From positions 5,545,501 to 5,609,500 of the forward strand of contig NZ_JAPEPX010000001.1 in the NCBI RefSeq assembly GCF_026339935.1: 64,000 nt of DNA. Reading direction: 5' to 3'. The translations under genes were made by a program, and so were the position numbers. This document shows positions 31,710 to 39,379 of this stretch, one piece after another; positions within the stretch are counted from its first letter, which is position 1, and each line of letters opens with the position of its first letter. Source of the DNA: Streptomyces sp. NBC_01551. GTDB taxonomy: Bacteria > Actinomycetota > Actinomycetes > Streptomycetales > Streptomycetaceae. Below the pieces are notes generated by a model. That model did no database searches. It worked only from the letters and a program-made list of their open reading frames with translations, and had not been told where the DNA came from.

Positions 31710-31794
31710 GTCCGGGTGGCGGAATGGCAGACGCGCTAGCTTGAGGTGCTAGTGCCCTTTATCGGGCGTGGGGGTTCAAGTCCCCCCTCGGACA
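31710..31794 (+). tRNA. tRNA-Leu (anticodon GAG)
   Basis: The 85-nt sequence folds as a class II tRNA. Acceptor stem GTCCGGG pairs with CTCGGAC; the anticodon stem CTAGC/GCTAG encloses loop TTGAGGT with anticodon GAG. The long variable arm is TGCCCTTTATCGGGCG-like and the T-arm has GTTCAAG between G-rich and C-rich strands. No CCA is encoded. It reads CUC and CUU leucine codons. Two strong hairpins follow. Confidence 0.97.
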
Positions 31795-31815
31795 CAAAGG
31801 TCAATCGACCACATG

Positions 31816-31852
31816 GAGCCGGTCAAAGTGACACTGTCGCTTTGACCGGCTC
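31816..31852 (+). terminator. Terminator hairpin after tRNA-Leu
   Basis: Perfect 13-bp arms (GAGCCGGTCAAAG and complement) with an 11-base loop that can pair further internally. Located 22 bp past the tRNA. Confidence 0.75.
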
Positions 31853-31872
31853 TGTCGTATGCGGTGAACATC

Positions 31873-31905
31873 GTCCGGCCCCCTGCGGTTCGCAGGGGGC
31901 CGGAC
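31873..31905 (+). terminator. Second hairpin, 15-bp stem followed by TTGTT
   Basis: Perfect 15-bp arms (GTCCGGCCCCCTGCG and complement) with a 3-base loop GTT, followed by TTGTT on the plus strand. This is the best intrinsic terminator in the window. It can serve the tRNA transcript; the TetR gene converges from the right. Confidence 0.8.
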
Positions 31906-31969
31906 TTGTTCGTGCTGGTGAGCTCGGGCGTAGGCGTTGGCGTGCGTGGCCCGGGTCTGTGCCGTTTCG

Positions 31970-32530
31970 TCAGGGCGTGGGGGTCAGTGCGGCCCGGGCG
32001 GCGTCCAGGATCTCGTCGGAGAGCGGGGTGTCCTTGGTGGCGCGGGCCAGTACGACCGCGCCGAGCATCGTGCACAGCCGGGCGATGCCGTCCTGGTCGT
32101 CCGTGGCGAGCCAGTCGGCGAAGTCGGACACGCCGTCGGCGTAGGTGCGGTGCGCCCCGAGGTCCCCGGGGTCGCGGGCCATGTCGACGGCCAGTGCGGC
32201 GGCGGGGCAGCCGACGGCGGGGGAATCCCGGTGCCGGGCGGACAGGTAGCTGTCGATCATCGCCTGCTGGGCCGCGGGGCGCTCGCCGTCGTGGTCCTCC
32301 AGTGCGGTGGTGCGCCGCTCGGCCAGTTCCCGGAACGCGTGCGTGACGGCCTCGTCGATGAGCGCTTCCTTGGAGGCGAACTGCTTGTAGAAGCCGCCGT
32401 GGGTCAGGCCGGCCGCCTTCATCAGGTCGGCGACGCTCACGCTCGTGCCCTGTTCGCGGAAGAGCCGCGATGCCATCTCCACGACCCGCTTGCGGTTCTC
32501 CTGCGCCTGCGCCTGCGATACGCGGCCCAT
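31970..32530 (-). CDS. TetR-family transcriptional regulator
   Basis: The 186-residue protein begins with a TetR helix-turn-helix (RKRVVEMASRLFREQG, SVADLMKAAGLTHGGFYKQFASKEAL). Its C-terminal domain contains VGCPAAALAVDMARD, the YhfA/AcrR-like pattern seen in regulators next to SDR genes. It diverges from the SDR/membrane protein pair with 125 bp between, in which a perfect 7-bp-arm palindrome lies. I infer that it represses itself and that operon until an unknown small ligand binds. Confidence 0.92.
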   Translation of the reverse strand: MGRVSQAQAQENRKRVVEMASRLFREQGTSVSVADLMKAAGLTHGGFYKQFASKEALIDEAVTHAFRELAERRTTALEDHDGERPAAQQAMIDSYLSARHRDSPAVGCPAAALAVDMARDPGDLGAHRTYADGVSDFADWLATDDQDGIARLCTMLGAVVLARATKDTPLSDEILDAARAALTPTP

Positions 32531-32578
32531 GGCACCTCCTCGTTTGGATGACGACTGGCATCTATCTTACTCCGGGTG

Positions 32579-32598
32579 TAGATTATGGGCGTAATCTA
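32579..32598. promoter_or_regulatory. TetR operator TAGATTA-N6-TAATCTA
   Basis: This perfect palindrome with 7-bp arms is strongly AT-rich within a GC-rich genome and lies between the divergent tetR and SDR genes (48 and 57 bp from the two starts). Its size and place match a TetR-dimer site covering one or both promoters. Confidence 0.75.
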
Positions 32599-32655
32599 AA
32601 TGGGCCGGGACGAGCGTGTGCGCCCCGGCCGGCCGCCCGAACCTTGGGAGATGTC

Positions 32656-33342
32656 ATGGAACTGAAGGACGCCGTCGCCGTGGTCACCGGAGCCAACCGG
32701 GGCCTGGGTCGTCATTTCGCCGCCCAGCTCGTCGAGCGCGGGGCCAAGGTCTACGCCGCCGCCCGCCGCCCCGAGTCGGTGGACCTGCGGGGCGTCGTAC
32801 CCCTCCACTTGGACCTGGCCGACCCGGGGTCGGTGCGGGAGGCCGCCCACATCGCCTCGGACGCCACCGTGCTCGTCAACAACGCCGGGATCATGACGGG
32901 CACCCCGCTGGTCGCGGGCGACTGGGACGCGGTGCGGCTGGAGATGGAGACGAACTTCTTCGGCCCCCTGGCCGTCACCCGGGCGTTCGCCCCGGTCATC
33001 GAGGGCAACCAGGGCGGGGCCGTCCTCAACGTGCTCTCCGTCCTGTCCTGGTTCCACCCGGCCGGAGCCGGTGCCTATGCCGCCGCCAAGGCCGCCGGCT
33101 GGGCGATGACCGACGCGATCCGGGAGGAACTGGCCCCGCGGGGCATCGCGGTCACCGCGCTCCACGTCGCCTACATGGACACCGACATGGCCGCCCGGAT
33201 TCCGGCCGGCCAGAAGACCGACCCCGCCCTCGTCGCGGCCCTCGCCCTCGACGGCCTGGCCGCCGGGGCACCGGAAATCCTCGCCGACGACCTCACCCGC
33301 GGTGTCAGGCAGGGGCTCGGAGGCGTCCCGTCCGCCGCCTGA
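32656..33342 (+). CDS. Short-chain dehydrogenase/reductase
   Basis: This 228-residue NAD(P)-dependent enzyme has the cofactor motif VTGANRGLGRHFA, the stabilising NNAG sequence (VLVNNAGIM) and the catalytic tail YAAAK in GAGAYAAAKAAGW with the Ser in SVLSWF. The ATG at 32656 follows GGGAG closely. The next gene starts 59 bp after the stop on the same strand. It is likely under the divergent TetR regulator. The substrate is unknown. Confidence 0.92.
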   Translation: MELKDAVAVVTGANRGLGRHFAAQLVERGAKVYAAARRPESVDLRGVVPLHLDLADPGSVREAAHIASDATVLVNNAGIMTGTPLVAGDWDAVRLEMETNFFGPLAVTRAFAPVIEGNQGGAVLNVLSVLSWFHPAGAGAYAAAKAAGWAMTDAIREELAPRGIAVTALHVAYMDTDMAARIPAGQKTDPALVAALALDGLAAGAPEILADDLTRGVRQGLGGVPSAA

Positions 33343-33401
33343 CCCACCCGCCCGGCCGCTCGCGGTCCGCCACCGCCGGACCGGACCAGGAAAGACCCTC
33401 C

Positions 33402-34439
33402 ATGAAATCCCCCGTCACATCCGCCCCGGCTGTCCTTGCGCCCGCCGTGGTGGGCGAAGCCCCCGCCCCGCCCGTCCCCGACACCCGCCGCCGTCCGCCC
33501 GTACGGACCTGGCTTCAGCCCGCCGTGATCGCCCTGGTCCTGGCCGTCGCGTTCATCGGCTGTTACATCGGCCTGCAGCGTGACCCCCAGCCCCACCACG
33601 TCCCCATCGCCGTCACCGGGCAGGAACTCGCCGCGCGGATGGGCGGCGCGCTCGGCGACAGCGTCGAGGTGCACCCGGCCGTCGACGCCGGGGCCGCCCG
33701 CCGGGCGCTGGAGCGGCACGAGGTCTCGGCCGCGCTCAGCGAGGGCCCCGGCGGCCGGCTGCACCTGGAGATCGCCGGAGCCTACGGCCCGTCCACCACC
33801 TCGGCCGTCAAGAGCCTCGTCGGCGCGTACGCCGAGGGCGCGCGCCGACAGGTCACCACCGAGGACGTCGTGCCCCTGACCCGCTACGACTCGCGCGGCC
33901 TGGCCGGCTTCTACCTCGCCTTCGGCGTGACCCTCGCGGGATTCGTCCTCGCCCAGAACGCCCTGGGCCTCGCCGGCCTGCTCCGCCTGCGCCACCGGCT
34001 CTGGCTGCTCTGCGCCGTCTCCGCCGCGGTCGGGACCGTGGCCGCCATCCTCGCCGGGCCCGTCCTGGGCGCCGTACCCGCCCCGATCGTCCCCCTGGCC
34101 TTCACCCTCACCCTGCTGGCCGCGGCCGCCGCGTTCGCCACCAAGCTGCTGGGTACGTACCTCGGTCCCGTCGGGGTACCCGCCGCGACCCTGCTGCTGC
34201 TCACCGTGGGCAACTCCACCAGTGGCGCCGCCATCAGCGCGGATCTCCTGCCGCCGGCCGCGCACGCCGTCTCCGCGCTCCTGCCGCCGGGGGCGGCCGT
34301 CCGTGCCATCACCGACCTCGGCTACTTCCACGGCGCCCGCGTCACGGGCCCGCTCGTCACCCTGGCAGCCTGGGCCGTGACCGCAGCGCTCCTGGTCGCA
34401 CTGCGGTCCCGCCTGCACCGCACTGCCGCGGATTCCTGA
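33402..34439 (+). CDS. Integral membrane protein, ABC-2/YhgE-Pip-like topology
   Basis: The 345-residue protein has one N-terminal membrane segment (VIALVLAVAFIGCYIGL), an extracytoplasmic domain of about 130 residues with VPIAVTGQELAARMGGALGD, and then about five membrane segments. This is the topology of ABC-2-like permeases and the YhgE/Pip and DUF3533-type families. AGGAAAG lies nine bases before the ATG. No ATPase gene is adjacent. It is probably co-transcribed with the SDR gene and controlled by the TetR regulator, so export or tolerance of a small molecule is possible. Confidence 0.7.
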   Translation: MKSPVTSAPAVLAPAVVGEAPAPPVPDTRRRPPVRTWLQPAVIALVLAVAFIGCYIGLQRDPQPHHVPIAVTGQELAARMGGALGDSVEVHPAVDAGAARRALERHEVSAALSEGPGGRLHLEIAGAYGPSTTSAVKSLVGAYAEGARRQVTTEDVVPLTRYDSRGLAGFYLAFGVTLAGFVLAQNALGLAGLLRLRHRLWLLCAVSAAVGTVAAILAGPVLGAVPAPIVPLAFTLTLLAAAAAFATKLLGTYLGPVGVPAATLLLLTVGNSTSGAAISADLLPPAAHAVSALLPPGAAVRAITDLGYFHGARVTGPLVTLAAWAVTAALLVALRSRLHRTAADS

Positions 34440-34469
34440 CGCCCCAGCCAAGAGCGGGGCACTGCGTGG

Positions 34470-37400
34470 TCACCGGAGAACGTCCACGTGAACGGTGGAG
34501 GGCAGGGCGTCCGCTCCCCGGACATCGCCGTGGCCGTGGGCTGTTTTGACGTGGACCTGCTCAAGGTCGGGCAGGTCGGCGAGAGGCGCGAGGTCGATCT
34601 CGTCGTCAGGCGCCGCGCGCCAGGTGACCTGGAGCGATCGCAGCCTCGGGAACGAGCTGGGCAGGCGGTCGATCGCGGCCTGCGTGGTTCCGTGTTCGTG
34701 GACGAGGAGGACCAGGGTCCTGACCGCCGTGAATTGCGTGGTCGTGGGCATGGACTCAAGCGCGTCGAGGGTCGTCATCAGCTGGAACAGGGTGGACAGG
34801 GTGGAGATTTCCCGCCATTCGTCCGCGGTGGGTTCGCAGTCTTCGTCGAGCTTCAGGTCGCGGAGGGGGAGTCGGGCCATGCCGGAAAGGTCGACCAGGG
34901 CGGGGCACTGCCCGATCCACAACGCCTTCAGCTCCGACTGCCCGGCCAGAAAGCCCAGATCGGTCGCCGTGTCGTGCGTGAGCTCGAATCGTGTGACCGC
35001 ATGGCGCGAGAGGTATGAGGTGAGCGCGGAAACGGAGACGCCGGTTCTGATGTCCAGGCGCCTCGGCCGCAGGCCCAGGCGGTCGAGGTGGTCCAGCTGC
35101 GCGTCCGACGTCACCGTGTAGTCCAGGTCGGCCGGGTCCAGGCGCGCGATGACCTCGTCGGCGTACCGGGCGGTGTCGAAGCGCGACCACGACCACATGA
35201 GCTGGGAACGGACCGGGAGCGACGGGTGATCGGCGAACCGGGACAGGAAGGCGACGGCGCCGTCGGACTGGAGGTGTGAGGCGGCGATGACCACGTGGTA
35301 CGCGTCCGTGTCGGCCAAGCCCTCCGGGCCCGGGAGGAGGTCCAGGACGAGGGGGCCGACCTCGGCCAACGCGCGGGCTCCCTCCTCGTTCCTCGGCGGG
35401 ATCAGGGAGGCCGTGCGCGCTTGCACCGCCTCGCGGACCGACGGGTCCAGGGTCGTGGCGTGTTCCAGGCAGGCCGCCGCCAGGAGGTAGACGCGGGCCT
35501 TCGTGGGCTGGTCGGGGGCGGTGGCGTCGCCGATGGCCAGCAGGTCGCGGAGGATCGCCACGCGTTCCGCGGGGCGGGCGAGGGCGACCGCCATGCGGAT
35601 GACGTCCTCCCACTGGTCGTCGGCGGCGTGCCGGGTCAGCAGCCCGAAGTCGCCCTCCTCCACGGCGGCCCGCGCCCCGAGGAAGTCCTGGAAGGTGCGG
35701 TGGACGAAGTCCACCGTGCCCGGGGCCGGTTCGCGCAGCAGCCCGCTGCGCTGCAGGAAGTGCTCGAAGACCACCGGGGCGGCGCCCAGTGCGGCCGCCT
35801 CGGGGACCGACGGCAGTGCCCGGCCGACGATGTCCTCGGCACGCGCGCGGTCCATCTCGGTACGGCCGTTCTTGATCAGCCAGTACGCGAGCCGCTGGAG
35901 CAGATCGAGCTGCGGCTCCTCGCGCAGGTCGGGACCCGCCATGTCGCGCTCCCGGTCGCGTCGGCTCAGCAGCATCGACAGCGCGGCCTCGTAGAGGTCC
36001 TTGCGGCCGTGCGGGAGGTAGCCGCCCCGGTCGCGGTGCAGCGCGCAGATCAGCCCGCACATCAAGGGGTTGGTCGCCAGCCGGCCGAGGTCGGGCTTCG
36101 TGCGGACCGCGCCGAGGAGCTGGCCCTCGTACATGTCGAGTTCGGCGTCCCGTTCGGCCGTGTCACGGCCCGTGCCCCGGGCGGCGGCGTGCCAGCGCCT
36201 GATGAAGGTCGCGATGTCGGCGGGGCCCATGGCGGACAGCGTCAGCTCGGCGAACCCGTCCTCCGCGAGCCAGTCCTGGTCCACGGCCGACGGCCGGGAG
36301 GTCACCAGCCACCGGTTGTCGCCGTCGTACGTGTCGACCAGGTCCCGCAGCCAGCGCCGGGCCCGCGCCCGCTCGGCGTCGGGGATCTCGTCGATGCCGT
36401 CGACGAGGATCAGGCCGCGTCCCGCCGCGAGGACGCGGTGTTCCCAGCCCGCCGGCTGGGTCCCCGCCGGCGAGCAGTCGGTCGCCGCGAGGAAGTCCTT
36501 CGGCGCGGGCAGCCGCTCGCCGTTGCGCGTCAGCGTGCGCAGCGGGAGGACGAAGGGGACGCGGTCGCGGAGGTACGCCGGCTGCTGCCCGGTCCGGGTT
36601 CCGCCGGCGGCCGTGACGGCCAGCCACTGCACGAGGGTGGTCTTCCCCGAGCCGGCCTCGCCCCGCAGGAGCACCCGGGGGCTGTGCGCCAGAGCCCGGT
36701 CCGCGGGCTGCGGCCCGGGCAGATGGCGCAGCGCGCCGCGGTAGGGCGCCGTGGGGTCGGGGTCCGGCAGACCGTCCACCGCCCGTGCGTCGCCCCCCGG
36801 GGCCGCCTCCAGGCTCAGGTACGCCACGTCCAGCGGCCACCGGGTGGGGGAGTTGCCGAGATCGATCCCGTAGATCGTGAGTTTGCCGTGCTTCTTGGCC
36901 ACATAGGGCAGGTACGTCGCCTCGAACGCGGCGTCCGCGCCCTCCGGGAGGGGGACGCGGCGGATCAGCTCGTCCGTCTTGGCCGTCAGCTCGCCCATCC
37001 CGCGCGACTGCTCGACCAGGGCGCGGGCGACGAACGTGGAGCGCTGCGTGAAGAAGTGCAGGATCTGATCGGCGGCGACGTCGAGCAGCCGCTCGTAGAA
37101 GTACGTGGCGTCGGCGCCGAGATGGCGCTCGGGGTTCCCGCCCGCGCGGCGCAGCTGCCGTACGAACTCCGCGCGCCCGAGGCGGACGGCGTCCAGATCG
37201 GTGAGCGTGAGGTCGCCGAGGGCGTGCAGCGTGGTCGCGAGGGCGTCGGCGACGGCCCGCTCCTCGTCGGCCGGTACGGGACGTTCGCCCGCGCCGACGG
37301 CCCGGCGGACGAGGGCGGCGGCGAGAGCGCTGACGTCCGCCTCGGTCAGGGAGCGTTTCTCGCCCCGGAAGGAGACGTACGAGGAAATGCGGACCGGCTT

Positions 37401-37502
37401 GTCGACGAGGCCGGCCCCCGGGCCCTCGGCGACGAAGATCTTCCTGATCAACGGGCCGATCACGGCCGAGGCCAGCCGGGTGCCGATCGTGATGGGTTCC
37501 AT
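34470..37502 (-). CDS. NACHT-domain STAND ATPase with leucine-rich C-terminus
   Basis: The 1010-residue protein is a STAND-type NTPase. Residues 1-250 are an alpha-helical region like NACHT N-terminal helical effector or adaptor domains. The NACHT core has Walker A GEAGSGKTT (residues 281-289), Walker B LILVDGIDEI with Asp368 and a second acidic pair Asp371-Glu372, then a WLVTSRPS sensor-like segment. From about residue 800 come short leucine-rich strands (for example ALVDLSGMARLPLRDLKLD, FPRLRSLQVTW) that resemble leucine-rich repeats used to sense ligands. Bacterial NACHT proteins are known from work on anti-phage defence. No phage or transposon genes surround it, so its role is unproven. 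It diverges from the kinase gene at 37665 with 162 bp between. Confidence 0.88.
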   Translation of the reverse strand: MEPITIGTRLASAVIGPLIRKIFVAEGPGAGLVDKPVRISSYVSFRGEKRSLTEADVSALAAALVRRAVGAGERPVPADEERAVADALATTLHALGDLTLTDLDAVRLGRAEFVRQLRRAGGNPERHLGADATYFYERLLDVAADQILHFFTQRSTFVARALVEQSRGMGELTAKTDELIRRVPLPEGADAAFEATYLPYVAKKHGKLTIYGIDLGNSPTRWPLDVAYLSLEAAPGGDARAVDGLPDPDPTAPYRGALRHLPGPQPADRALAHSPRVLLRGEAGSGKTTLVQWLAVTAAGGTRTGQQPAYLRDRVPFVLPLRTLTRNGERLPAPKDFLAATDCSPAGTQPAGWEHRVLAAGRGLILVDGIDEIPDAERARARRWLRDLVDTYDGDNRWLVTSRPSAVDQDWLAEDGFAELTLSAMGPADIATFIRRWHAAARGTGRDTAERDAELDMYEGQLLGAVRTKPDLGRLATNPLMCGLICALHRDRGGYLPHGRKDLYEAALSMLLSRRDRERDMAGPDLREEPQLDLLQRLAYWLIKNGRTEMDRARAEDIVGRALPSVPEAAALGAAPVVFEHFLQRSGLLREPAPGTVDFVHRTFQDFLGARAAVEEGDFGLLTRHAADDQWEDVIRMAVALARPAERVAILRDLLAIGDATAPDQPTKARVYLLAAACLEHATTLDPSVREAVQARTASLIPPRNEEGARALAEVGPLVLDLLPGPEGLADTDAYHVVIAASHLQSDGAVAFLSRFADHPSLPVRSQLMWSWSRFDTARYADEVIARLDPADLDYTVTSDAQLDHLDRLGLRPRRLDIRTGVSVSALTSYLSRHAVTRFELTHDTATDLGFLAGQSELKALWIGQCPALVDLSGMARLPLRDLKLDEDCEPTADEWREISTLSTLFQLMTTLDALESMPTTTQFTAVRTLVLLVHEHGTTQAAIDRLPSSFPRLRSLQVTWRAAPDDEIDLAPLADLPDLEQVHVKTAHGHGDVRGADALPSTVHVDVLR

Positions 37503-37664
37503 GCCAGCCCCCGTAGCGCCGTCAGCGAAGTCTTCGTGATCTTAGGGCGACCGCCCGTGCTCCACCCCCGACTTCAGCGGTTCGCTGACACTCTCGCGCA
37601 CCACGGACACGGCCCCCTGCGCGTGCGGCATCATGGCACTTGAACGGGCCGAGGGGGAGCGAAC

Positions 37665-38924
37665 GTGTCGCAGGACGAGCCGGGCAACGGCAACGTGATC
37701 GCCGGGCGTTACCGCCTGGGGAAGCGGCTGGGCAGGGGCGGCATGGGCACCGTCTGGCGGGCCACCGACGAACTGCTCGGACGCCCGGTCGCCGTCAAGG
37801 AACTCCACGTCGACGGCGGCAAGAAGGCCGCCACCGGCGCGCTGCGGGAGGCGCGCACCGTCGCGCAGGTCAAGCACCCGCACGTCGTGGTCGTGCACGA
37901 CGTGGTCGAGGACGACGAGCGCCCCTTCATCGTGATGGAGCTCGTCGAGGGCGGCTCCCTCGCCGACCGGCTCTCCGCCGACGGGCCGTTGAGCGTCGGC
38001 GACACCGCCCGTACCGGACTCGCCCTGCTCGGCGCGCTGAGCGCGGCCCACGCCCGCGGGGTCCTGCACCGCGACGTCAAGCCCGCCAACGTCCTCATGG
38101 AGGCGGGCACCGGCCGGGTGGTGCTCACCGACTTCGGCATCGCCAGCCTCGCCGGGTCCACGACCATCAGCGAGACCGGCGCCTTCGTCGGCTCGCCCGA
38201 GTACACCTCGCCCGAGCGCATGCAGGGCGCCGCCGCCGGCCCCGCCAGCGACCTGTGGTCGCTCGGCGCGCTGCTCTGCGCCGCGCTGACGGGCGAGTCG
38301 CCCTTCCACCGGGACTCGCTCGGCGGAGTGCTGCACGCCGTCGTGTACGACGAGATCCGGCCGCCCGAGCAGGCGGGGCCGCTGGTTCCGGTCATCCGCG
38401 GCCTGCTGGAACGCGACCCGGAGCGGCGGCTGGCGGCGGCCGAGGCGGAGCGGCTGCTCTCGGCGTACGTGGCCACCGGGCGGGTCCCGCTGATGGAACG
38501 GGTCCCGGGCGCGACCCCGCCGTCCGCCGTGAAGCCGCCCGGCGCGGTCCCGGCCGACCGGGTGGCCGTGGGGTACTCACCGACCGAGCACGTCGCCCGG
38601 CCCGCGGCCCCCGCGTCCGCGGAGCCCCGGCCGGCCCGCCCGGCCGCCCTGCGGGTGGGGCTGGTCGCCGCGCTCGTGGTCGCGGCGGTCGTCGGCGCCG
38701 TGGCCGTGACCTCGTACCTCGGCGACCGGTCGGCCGCCCGGCCCCCGCCACTGTCGCGGACGCACCGGCCACGCCCTCGGCCTCGTCCGCTCCGTCCGGC
38801 TCGCCCGCCGCGGGCCCCACGCCGAGCGCCGCCGCACCCGGCGCGGCCACCCCGCCCACCGCGGACGCCAAGCCCGCCGGCACCAGGTCCCCGGTGGACG
38901 CGCTGCCGACGGCCCGCACCGTGA
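37665..38924 (+). CDS. Ser/Thr protein kinase, frame lost after the membrane segment
   Basis: The first 350 codons encode a complete Hanks-type kinase: glycine loop GRGGMG (residues 23-28), Lys45, HRDVKPANV with Asp137, DFG at 156-158, and SPEYTSPERM. A transmembrane segment follows (VGLVAALVVAAVVGAVAV, about residues 330-350). Around residue 360 the frame changes: the remaining 60 residues are Pro/Arg shadow sequence, while the expected extracellular domain continues in another frame (next entry). A single C added to the run of five at 38742-38746 joins them. The kinase is therefore annotated as read; the intact protein would be about 570 residues. Confidence 0.85.
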   Translation: MSQDEPGNGNVIAGRYRLGKRLGRGGMGTVWRATDELLGRPVAVKELHVDGGKKAATGALREARTVAQVKHPHVVVVHDVVEDDERPFIVMELVEGGSLADRLSADGPLSVGDTARTGLALLGALSAAHARGVLHRDVKPANVLMEAGTGRVVLTDFGIASLAGSTTISETGAFVGSPEYTSPERMQGAAAGPASDLWSLGALLCAALTGESPFHRDSLGGVLHAVVYDEIRPPEQAGPLVPVIRGLLERDPERRLAAAEAERLLSAYVATGRVPLMERVPGATPPSAVKPPGAVPADRVAVGYSPTEHVARPAAPASAEPRPARPAALRVGLVAALVVAAVVGAVAVTSYLGDRSAARPPPLSRTHRPRPRPRPLRPARPPRAPRRAPPHPARPPRPPRTPSPPAPGPRWTRCRRPAP

Positions 38925-39379
38925 CGGCGAAGCCCGCGCCCGCCGGGTACCGGAACGTGACCGACAAGGAGGGCTTCGGCATCGCCGTACCCGTCGGCTA
39001 CCAGCGGACCACCGACGACCGCCGCGTCTTCTACGTGTCCCCGGACGGGGCCTTCCGCATCGGCATCAAGGTGAGCGGGCCGGCCTCCGGCGGCGCGCTC
39101 GGCGCGATGCGGCGCTCCGACGCGAACGGCGCGTCCACCAACCCCGGTTACCGCGACAACTCCGTCGTCGCGACCACCCACAACGGACTGCCCGCCGCCC
39201 TCTGGGAGTTCACCTGGAACGGCTTCAGCACCGCCGAGGGCGCCCGCCACACCTTCGACGTCTGCTGGGACGAGAACGGCCGCATGTACGACGTCTGGGT
39301 GTCCGCGCCCGTCGGCAGGCTCGCCGAGGCCCGCAGCCACTTCGACACCGCCCTCGACTCGTTCGTGCCGGCGGGCTGA
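38738..39379 (+). pseudogene. Out-of-frame extracellular domain of the Ser/Thr kinase
   Basis: In the frame one base away from the kinase the sequence reads ATVADAPATPSASSAPSG (a Ser/Pro/Ala linker) and then a domain typical of the outer part of Streptomyces kinases: GYRNVTDKEGFGIAVPVGYQ, GLPAALWEFTWNG, HFDTALDSFVPAG and the stop at 39379. It has no start of its own. It only makes sense as the missing C-terminus of the kinase. The frame is lost at GGCCCCCGCC (38740-38749); a sixth C restores it. Either a real mutation, an unresolved homopolymer in the sequence, or programmed slippage. Confidence 0.85.

Follow-up and report, generated by a model that had tools for sequence, protein, structure and literature searches.

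A Streptomyces NNH1-NACHT protein with fast-evolving leucine-rich repeats as a candidate single-gene bacterial NLR

Results

Architecture of the NACHT protein

The window analysed here is a 64,000-nucleotide stretch of Streptomyces sp. NBC_01551 (contig NZ_JAPEPX010000001.1, positions 5,545,501 to 5,609,500), and our subject is one of its open reading frames (ORF), which starts with ATG and encodes a 1010-aa protein with an N-terminal NNH1 domain, a NACHT NTPase and predicted C-terminal leucine-rich repeats (LRR), an order of domains that resembles nucleotide-binding leucine-rich repeat receptors (NLRs) (Table 1). The ORF has the coding-type GC of a high-GC gene (0.75, 0.50 and 0.93 at codon positions 1, 2 and 3). 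The Pfam scan detected NNH1 (PF22733) with 173 bits against a gathering score of 27 bits, covering profile positions 1-176 of 177, and we saw no difference between the window protein and the family to which it belongs. Walker A (G281-T289), Walker B (D368/G369/D371/E372) and T401-S402-R403-P404 hold residues invariant across 85 aligned sequences, the window protein included.

The full-length protein was modelled from an alignment with 10 of the 120 listed database proteins and 74 of the 80 named loci (the loci of the named relatives that were kept), giving a predicted local distance difference test score (pLDDT) of 86. From residue 795 onward the model has about ten strands spaced 20-27 residues apart, which are leucine-rich repeats; each ten-residue mean pLDDT is at least 85 from residue 791 on, and solved LRR proteins align to this part. 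Pfam gave no LRR match in the window protein, and the LRR models at E<=0.01 match few of 42 family members (LRR_4 in three, LRR_14 in one, LRR_8 in one), all 42 of which match both NNH1 and NACHT. The best PDB matches of the full model were the animal NLRs NOD2, NLRC4 and NLRP3 over residues ~185-1010, and the winged-helix and helical linker between NACHT and LRR are covered by the alignments to NOD2 and NLRP3 (~186-1010). For the helical region at residues 621-790, weak HEAT_2 matches below the family cut-off were found in three of nine relatives that share this NACHT-LRR chassis. The PDB sequence set gave nothing significant for the window protein.

The three-part architecture of a helical N-terminus, intact NACHT core and leucine-rich tail, which a preliminary description had proposed from the sequence, was therefore right. 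The same description had called the effector unclear and possibly new. When the N-terminal part was modelled, NNH1 alone had no significant PDB structure match; the domain is already classified by Pfam.

Table 1. Coordinates of the NACHT gene, its regions and the neighbouring features in the window
Feature	Position	Strand	Basis
NNH1-NACHT-LRR protein gene (candidate bacterial NLR), 1010 aa	34470..37502	-	ORF, Pfam, model
NNH1 helical N-terminal domain, residues 7-180, presumed effector or adaptor	36963..37484	-	Pfam 8e-51, model
NACHT NTPase, residues 277-440, intact Walker A/B	36183..36674	-	Pfam 3e-29, invariant motifs
Winged-helix-like part after NACHT, residues 461-620; lowest dN/dS of compared regions, 0.16	35643..36122	-	model
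Helical (HD2/HEAT-like) region, residues 621-790	35133..35642	-	model
Leucine-rich repeats, residues 791-1010; fast-evolving presumed sensor	34473..35132	-	model, evolution
tRNA-Leu(GAG); its 3' end bounds the variable slot on one side	31710..31795	+	comparison with empty sites
5.8-kb stretch (TetR, SDR, membrane-protein and NACHT genes), missing at the same site in three relatives	31797..37622
Ser/Thr kinase gene resident at the site and divergent from the NACHT gene; the 37665-38924 frame holds the kinase domain, a second frame the C-terminal part	37665..39379	+

Fast evolution of the LRR

Sequence change is much faster in the LRR than in the other parts of the protein. The two closest named database proteins, both from S. 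goshikiensis, are 88% and 87% identical to the window protein over residues 1-260; in 50-residue blocks, the identity to them ranges over 72-98% as far as residue 800, drops to 64-66% for residues 801-850 and lies at 38-48% beyond 850. The ratio of nonsynonymous to synonymous substitution rates (dN/dS) was calculated with the window copy and 74 of the 80 named loci, six with odd or missing starts being dropped, from 21 of 59 candidate pairs chosen such that each locus was used once. The pooled dN/dS was 0.26 for NNH1, 0.27 for NACHT, 0.16 for residues 461-620 and 0.34 for residues 621-790, and reached 0.69 for the LRR (bootstrap 0.58-0.81), remaining at 0.72 with nine gap-poor pairs. Six flank-gene families, with 10-16 of the same pairs each, gave 0.06-0.38.

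When the LRR was divided by position, dN/dS was 0.99 (bootstrap 0.83-1.20) for the predicted concave face, 0.42 for the scaffold and 0.62 for all other positions. Columns of the concave face had an entropy of 3.25 bits, compared with 1.44 bits for the scaffold and 0.95 bits for NACHT; every displacement of the concave set between -3 and +7 residues lowered the value (2.11-2.98 bits). The synonymous rate was also raised in the LRR compared to NACHT (0.39 vs 0.21, 21 pairs), and since this shrank to 0.23 vs 0.20 with the gap-poor pairs, we do not claim old allelic lineages.

Exchange of the N-terminal domain

Twenty relatives that align to the window protein only from about residue 181-193 were chosen for examination of their upstream DNA, and in 17 of them a trypsin-like H...S motif was detected in the same ORF (a stricter pattern, which this one replaced, gave 11 of 20); one further relative, L124, appeared trypsin-like by eye. 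Pfam detected Trypsin_2 or Trypsin above cut-off in seven of nine of the 20 that were scanned. Among the remaining relatives, L120 (G047:C1:3589300-3593500) has an N-terminal HTH_31 domain (1.9e-11) on the same chassis, and L122 gave no N-terminal Pfam match. The trypsin-like-NACHT-LRR proteins of Streptomyces thus share the chassis (35-51% identity from residue ~181-193), some of them beside clpC, and carry a protease where the window protein has NNH1. This shared position is our main reason to see NNH1 as a putative executioner or its adaptor.

Distribution and the clpC-side locus

Relatives of the NACHT protein were found in 51 of 61 sampled Streptomyces genomes, its own included (E<=1e-3). 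Of the 80 named relatives kept, 78 are from Streptomyces and the other two from Wenjunlia and Actinacidiphila, in a search that reaches close relatives only; a full-length reading from the expected start was obtained at 74 of the loci. NNH1 itself occurs in 10 of 296 actinobacterial genomes (seven above the family cut-off, six of the ten in the same genus), and of 7992 candidates scored from a large protein database, 1328 matched in the NNH1 region. A second, different NACHT protein is encoded in the genome of the window (L002, C1:143982-147437); its open frame spans 810 aa and, judged by eye, includes several hydrophobic segments of membrane-like character.

At 52 of the 80 named loci the NACHT gene lies between a sigE-cseABC/MFS/TetR/M23-like cluster and the convergent clpC, and six further loci match this arrangement on one side; the names sigE, cseABC, M23, MFS, clpC, lsr2, metG, LysR and urease were given by eye from sequence and not by family search. 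A NACHT relative, counted whatever its N-terminus, lies within 12 kb of clpC in 32 of 60 sampled genomes with a placed clpC (rows above ~200 bits; weaker rows and two N-terminal fragment rows, G042 and G039, excluded), and all 34 clpC-side NACHT genes are on the opposite strand, facing clpC. In 10 match-free genomes and the window's own genome clpC and M23 are 0.5-2.3 kb apart, too close for a NACHT gene between them. At 15 of the 80 named loci the retrieved flank contains another NACHT relative after the first.

In the tree of residues 1-790, the window copy and L023-L026 form a group with support 0.98, nested in a clade whose copies are not beside clpC; genomic context required six changes by parsimony on this tree, in which several deep nodes are weakly supported. 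A gene of 241-358 aa, YhcG/DUF1016-type nuclease-like by eye, was observed between NACHT and clpC in L037, L038, L043 and L075.

The slot occupied in the window and the adjoining kinase

Three genomes (G054, G379 and G386) share the gene set that surrounds the site (kinase, tRNA-Leu, KAS III, FdhD and SBF transporter, with metG in two of them, where the stretch reaches it) and no NACHT match there; in G054 no match was found anywhere in the genome, while G379 and G386 were examined at the site stretches. The DNA match to these empty genomes ends where tRNA-Leu(GAG) has its 3' end (window position 31795/31796) and starts again at 37623/37624, the two borders being 69-79 bp apart in the empty genomes; in G379, an extra 1.8 kb separates KAS III from the tRNA. 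The content of the slot bordered by this tRNA varies among relatives. In L151 and L152, urease-like genes by eye lie beyond the NACHT gene, and no KAS III or FdhD match was found on the stretch. The membrane-protein gene of the 5.8-kb stretch had no Pfam match.

A tRNA-borne integrative element was considered for the border at the tRNA-Leu 3' end and rejected, there being no clear tRNA-end repeat near the other border (best 13/20 bases on the same strand and 14/20 on the opposite strand); no integrase was seen by eye in the listed stretches, where no family search was made. A plasmid origin was also rejected (77 of 72,556 plasmid records match, only one over at least 80% of the query), as was a phage origin, with no match among phage records.

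The preliminary description had placed a Ser/Thr kinase beside the NACHT gene, and a divergent one indeed lies 162 bp away. Its presence at the same site in the three genomes lacking the NACHT gene indicates that it is a resident gene and probably not the effector or an obligate partner. A kinase 73-80% identical to it adjoins the NACHT gene in L023-L026, L151, L152 and G012; all eight examined loci of the window's sub-clade have this neighbour, one of them at another place (in G012 both genes are 2.4 Mb from metG), and a looser kinase-NACHT link may exist. The kinase frame is split in the window, the domain lying in 37665-38924 and the conserved C-terminal part in 37640-39379, compared to one 587-aa frame in the relative L025; either a sequencing error or a genuine frameshift may be the cause.

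The description had also reported no defence genes nearby, and this was borne out in the PADLOC scan of ten neighbours, in which only the kinase matched (34 families, best PD-T4-6 at 1.3e-74), probably through the shared kinase domain. No protease or gasdermin family was detected by Pfam in nine neighbour reading frames.

Discussion

Animal NLRs (NOD2, NLRC4, NLRP3) have the same order of NACHT, winged-helix, helical HD2-like and LRR parts, with CARD or PYD at the N-terminus where the window protein has NNH1, and are ~12-20% identical to it in the alignments shown. The window protein shares with NLRs a NACHT with intact Walker motifs and, as the predicted structure suggests, C-terminal LRRs and the linker. 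In the NLR/STAND scheme an autoinhibited monomer receives a ligand on its repeat domain, exchanges nucleotide and forms a ring-like oligomer in which the N-terminal domains are clustered. The sequence and the predicted model contain the parts that such a scheme needs; the NTPase motifs are intact and the model is NLR-like.

We suggest, with moderate confidence, that the gene encodes a single-gene bacterial NLR, whose LRR would read an invader ligand, most likely from phage, and which would act through clustered NNH1. The LRR tail could recognise an invader-derived or invader-altered ligand, with a phage component as the most likely one; release of autoinhibition would let the NACHT module exchange nucleotide and presumably oligomerise; many NNH1 domains, as putative effectors, would be brought together; and the cluster may stop or kill the infected cell, directly or via a recruited partner. 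This proposal rests on the fast LRR, the exchange of NNH1 and protease, and presence/absence at defined sites, which together with the structure also support the immune-receptor architecture proposed in the preliminary description. An anti-phage role is plausible.

Several points weigh against this interpretation. No PADLOC-DB 2.0.0 model matches the NACHT protein beyond chance (best E 0.033), EruA (NCBIfam NF058535) matches weakly at 24 bits against a cut-off of 1000, and no defence island was seen among the scanned neighbours. Mobile defence genes less typically occupy one shared place, such as that beside clpC, in many species. The dN/dS phase control was not specific, a shift of +4 giving 0.99 as well (21 pairs) and the nine gap-poor pairs giving 1.02 at shift 0 vs 1.13 at +4; the concave-face dN/dS was thus dropped as a specific signal, and our reading relies solely on the contrast shown by the LRR as a whole and on the phase of the entropy. 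The concave dN/dS is not clearly above 1, and the counting method used does not distinguish positive selection from relaxed constraint, so the latter may explain the values; exposed positions of non-immune LRR proteins may vary more too. To our knowledge, no activity has been assigned to Pfam NNH1.

A fast LRR also fits an allorecognition or kin-conflict receptor, in which the LRR would read proteins of other bacteria (injected toxins, fusion or contact partners) and NNH1 would trigger local hyphal death, as fungal HET NLRs serve allorecognition rather than phage sensing. The wide spread in a mycelial genus and the conserved place facing clpC agree with such a role; phages are however a simpler source of selection, and neither a polymorphic toxin nor any one partner gene was conspicuous beside the gene, the immediate neighbours differing between loci (families by eye), so that we regard it as unlikely. 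The position of the commonest locus between the sigE-cseABC/M23-like cluster and clpC, and the HTH domain of L120, would suit a cellular regulator of the MalT/AfsR kind, a signalling STAND ATPase for development, envelope stress or proteostasis whose LRR reads a host signal, which we rate slightly lower still.

A receptor that guards, or is triggered by, the divergent kinase is improbable: the recurrent kinase neighbour of the window's sub-clade speaks for such a pair, while the kinase persists at the same site without the NACHT gene, and a kinase domain was found in only four of the 80 named loci (E<=1e-20). A decaying gene with an LRR drifting without selection would account for the concave dN/dS near 1, and is very improbable given the clear constraint on the other compared regions (0.16-0.34), the less variable LRR scaffold positions, the intact frame in the window and the full-length reading of most named loci.

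Bacterial NACHT proteins defend against phages, and some carry LRRs and are termed bona fide bacterial NLRs in PMC12169576. The window protein is thus a further member of an already described kind, with a clear diversification signature. Like it, the bNACHT proteins of Kibby et al. 2023, as described in PMC12169576, are tripartite NACHT proteins; unlike it, bNACHT25/32 have a PD-(D/E)XK effector and an NCH1 domain, and bNACHT02/12 have SNaCT and, in that account, no readily discernible effector. The same source describes that bNACHT25 requires host DnaJ for phage sensing, suggesting that sensing by the window protein could be indirect too. The CARD-NLR/gasdermin systems and LypABC likewise use an NLR-like ATPase for defence or lysis, according to PMC13236601, but are multi-gene systems, whereas the window gene has no protease or gasdermin family in the scanned neighbour frames.

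More tentatively, the genus may possess a Streptomyces-wide NLR system evolving like plant and animal NLRs, with a conserved NACHT engine at the clpC-side locus and secondary slots, an LRR ligand face under diversifying selection, and an executioner swapped between protease and NNH1, the latter being a new kind of helical death domain, active on clustering and perhaps at the membrane. The LRR diversification, clpC-side locus and effector exchange raise the gene above ordinary annotation. No dedicated report on NNH1-NACHT-LRR proteins of Streptomyces was recognised from titles and abstract openings, in a search outside which most subscription journals lay. If the interpretation is true, these genes form a bacterial NLR family that would supply hundreds of naturally occurring receptor alleles built on one common chassis, in a tractable genus with known phages, and both the direct binding of phage products by bacterial LRRs and the action of NNH1 would become testable, the exchange of protease and NNH1 on one chassis offering natural domain-swap comparisons.

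Tandem arrangements were also observed at the clpC locus, where all four partners scanned were trypsin-like-NACHT proteins. In L064, L065, L081 and L083 the NNH1-NACHT-LRR copy comes first and the trypsin-like-NACHT copy follows, and a sensor-helper pair is possible.
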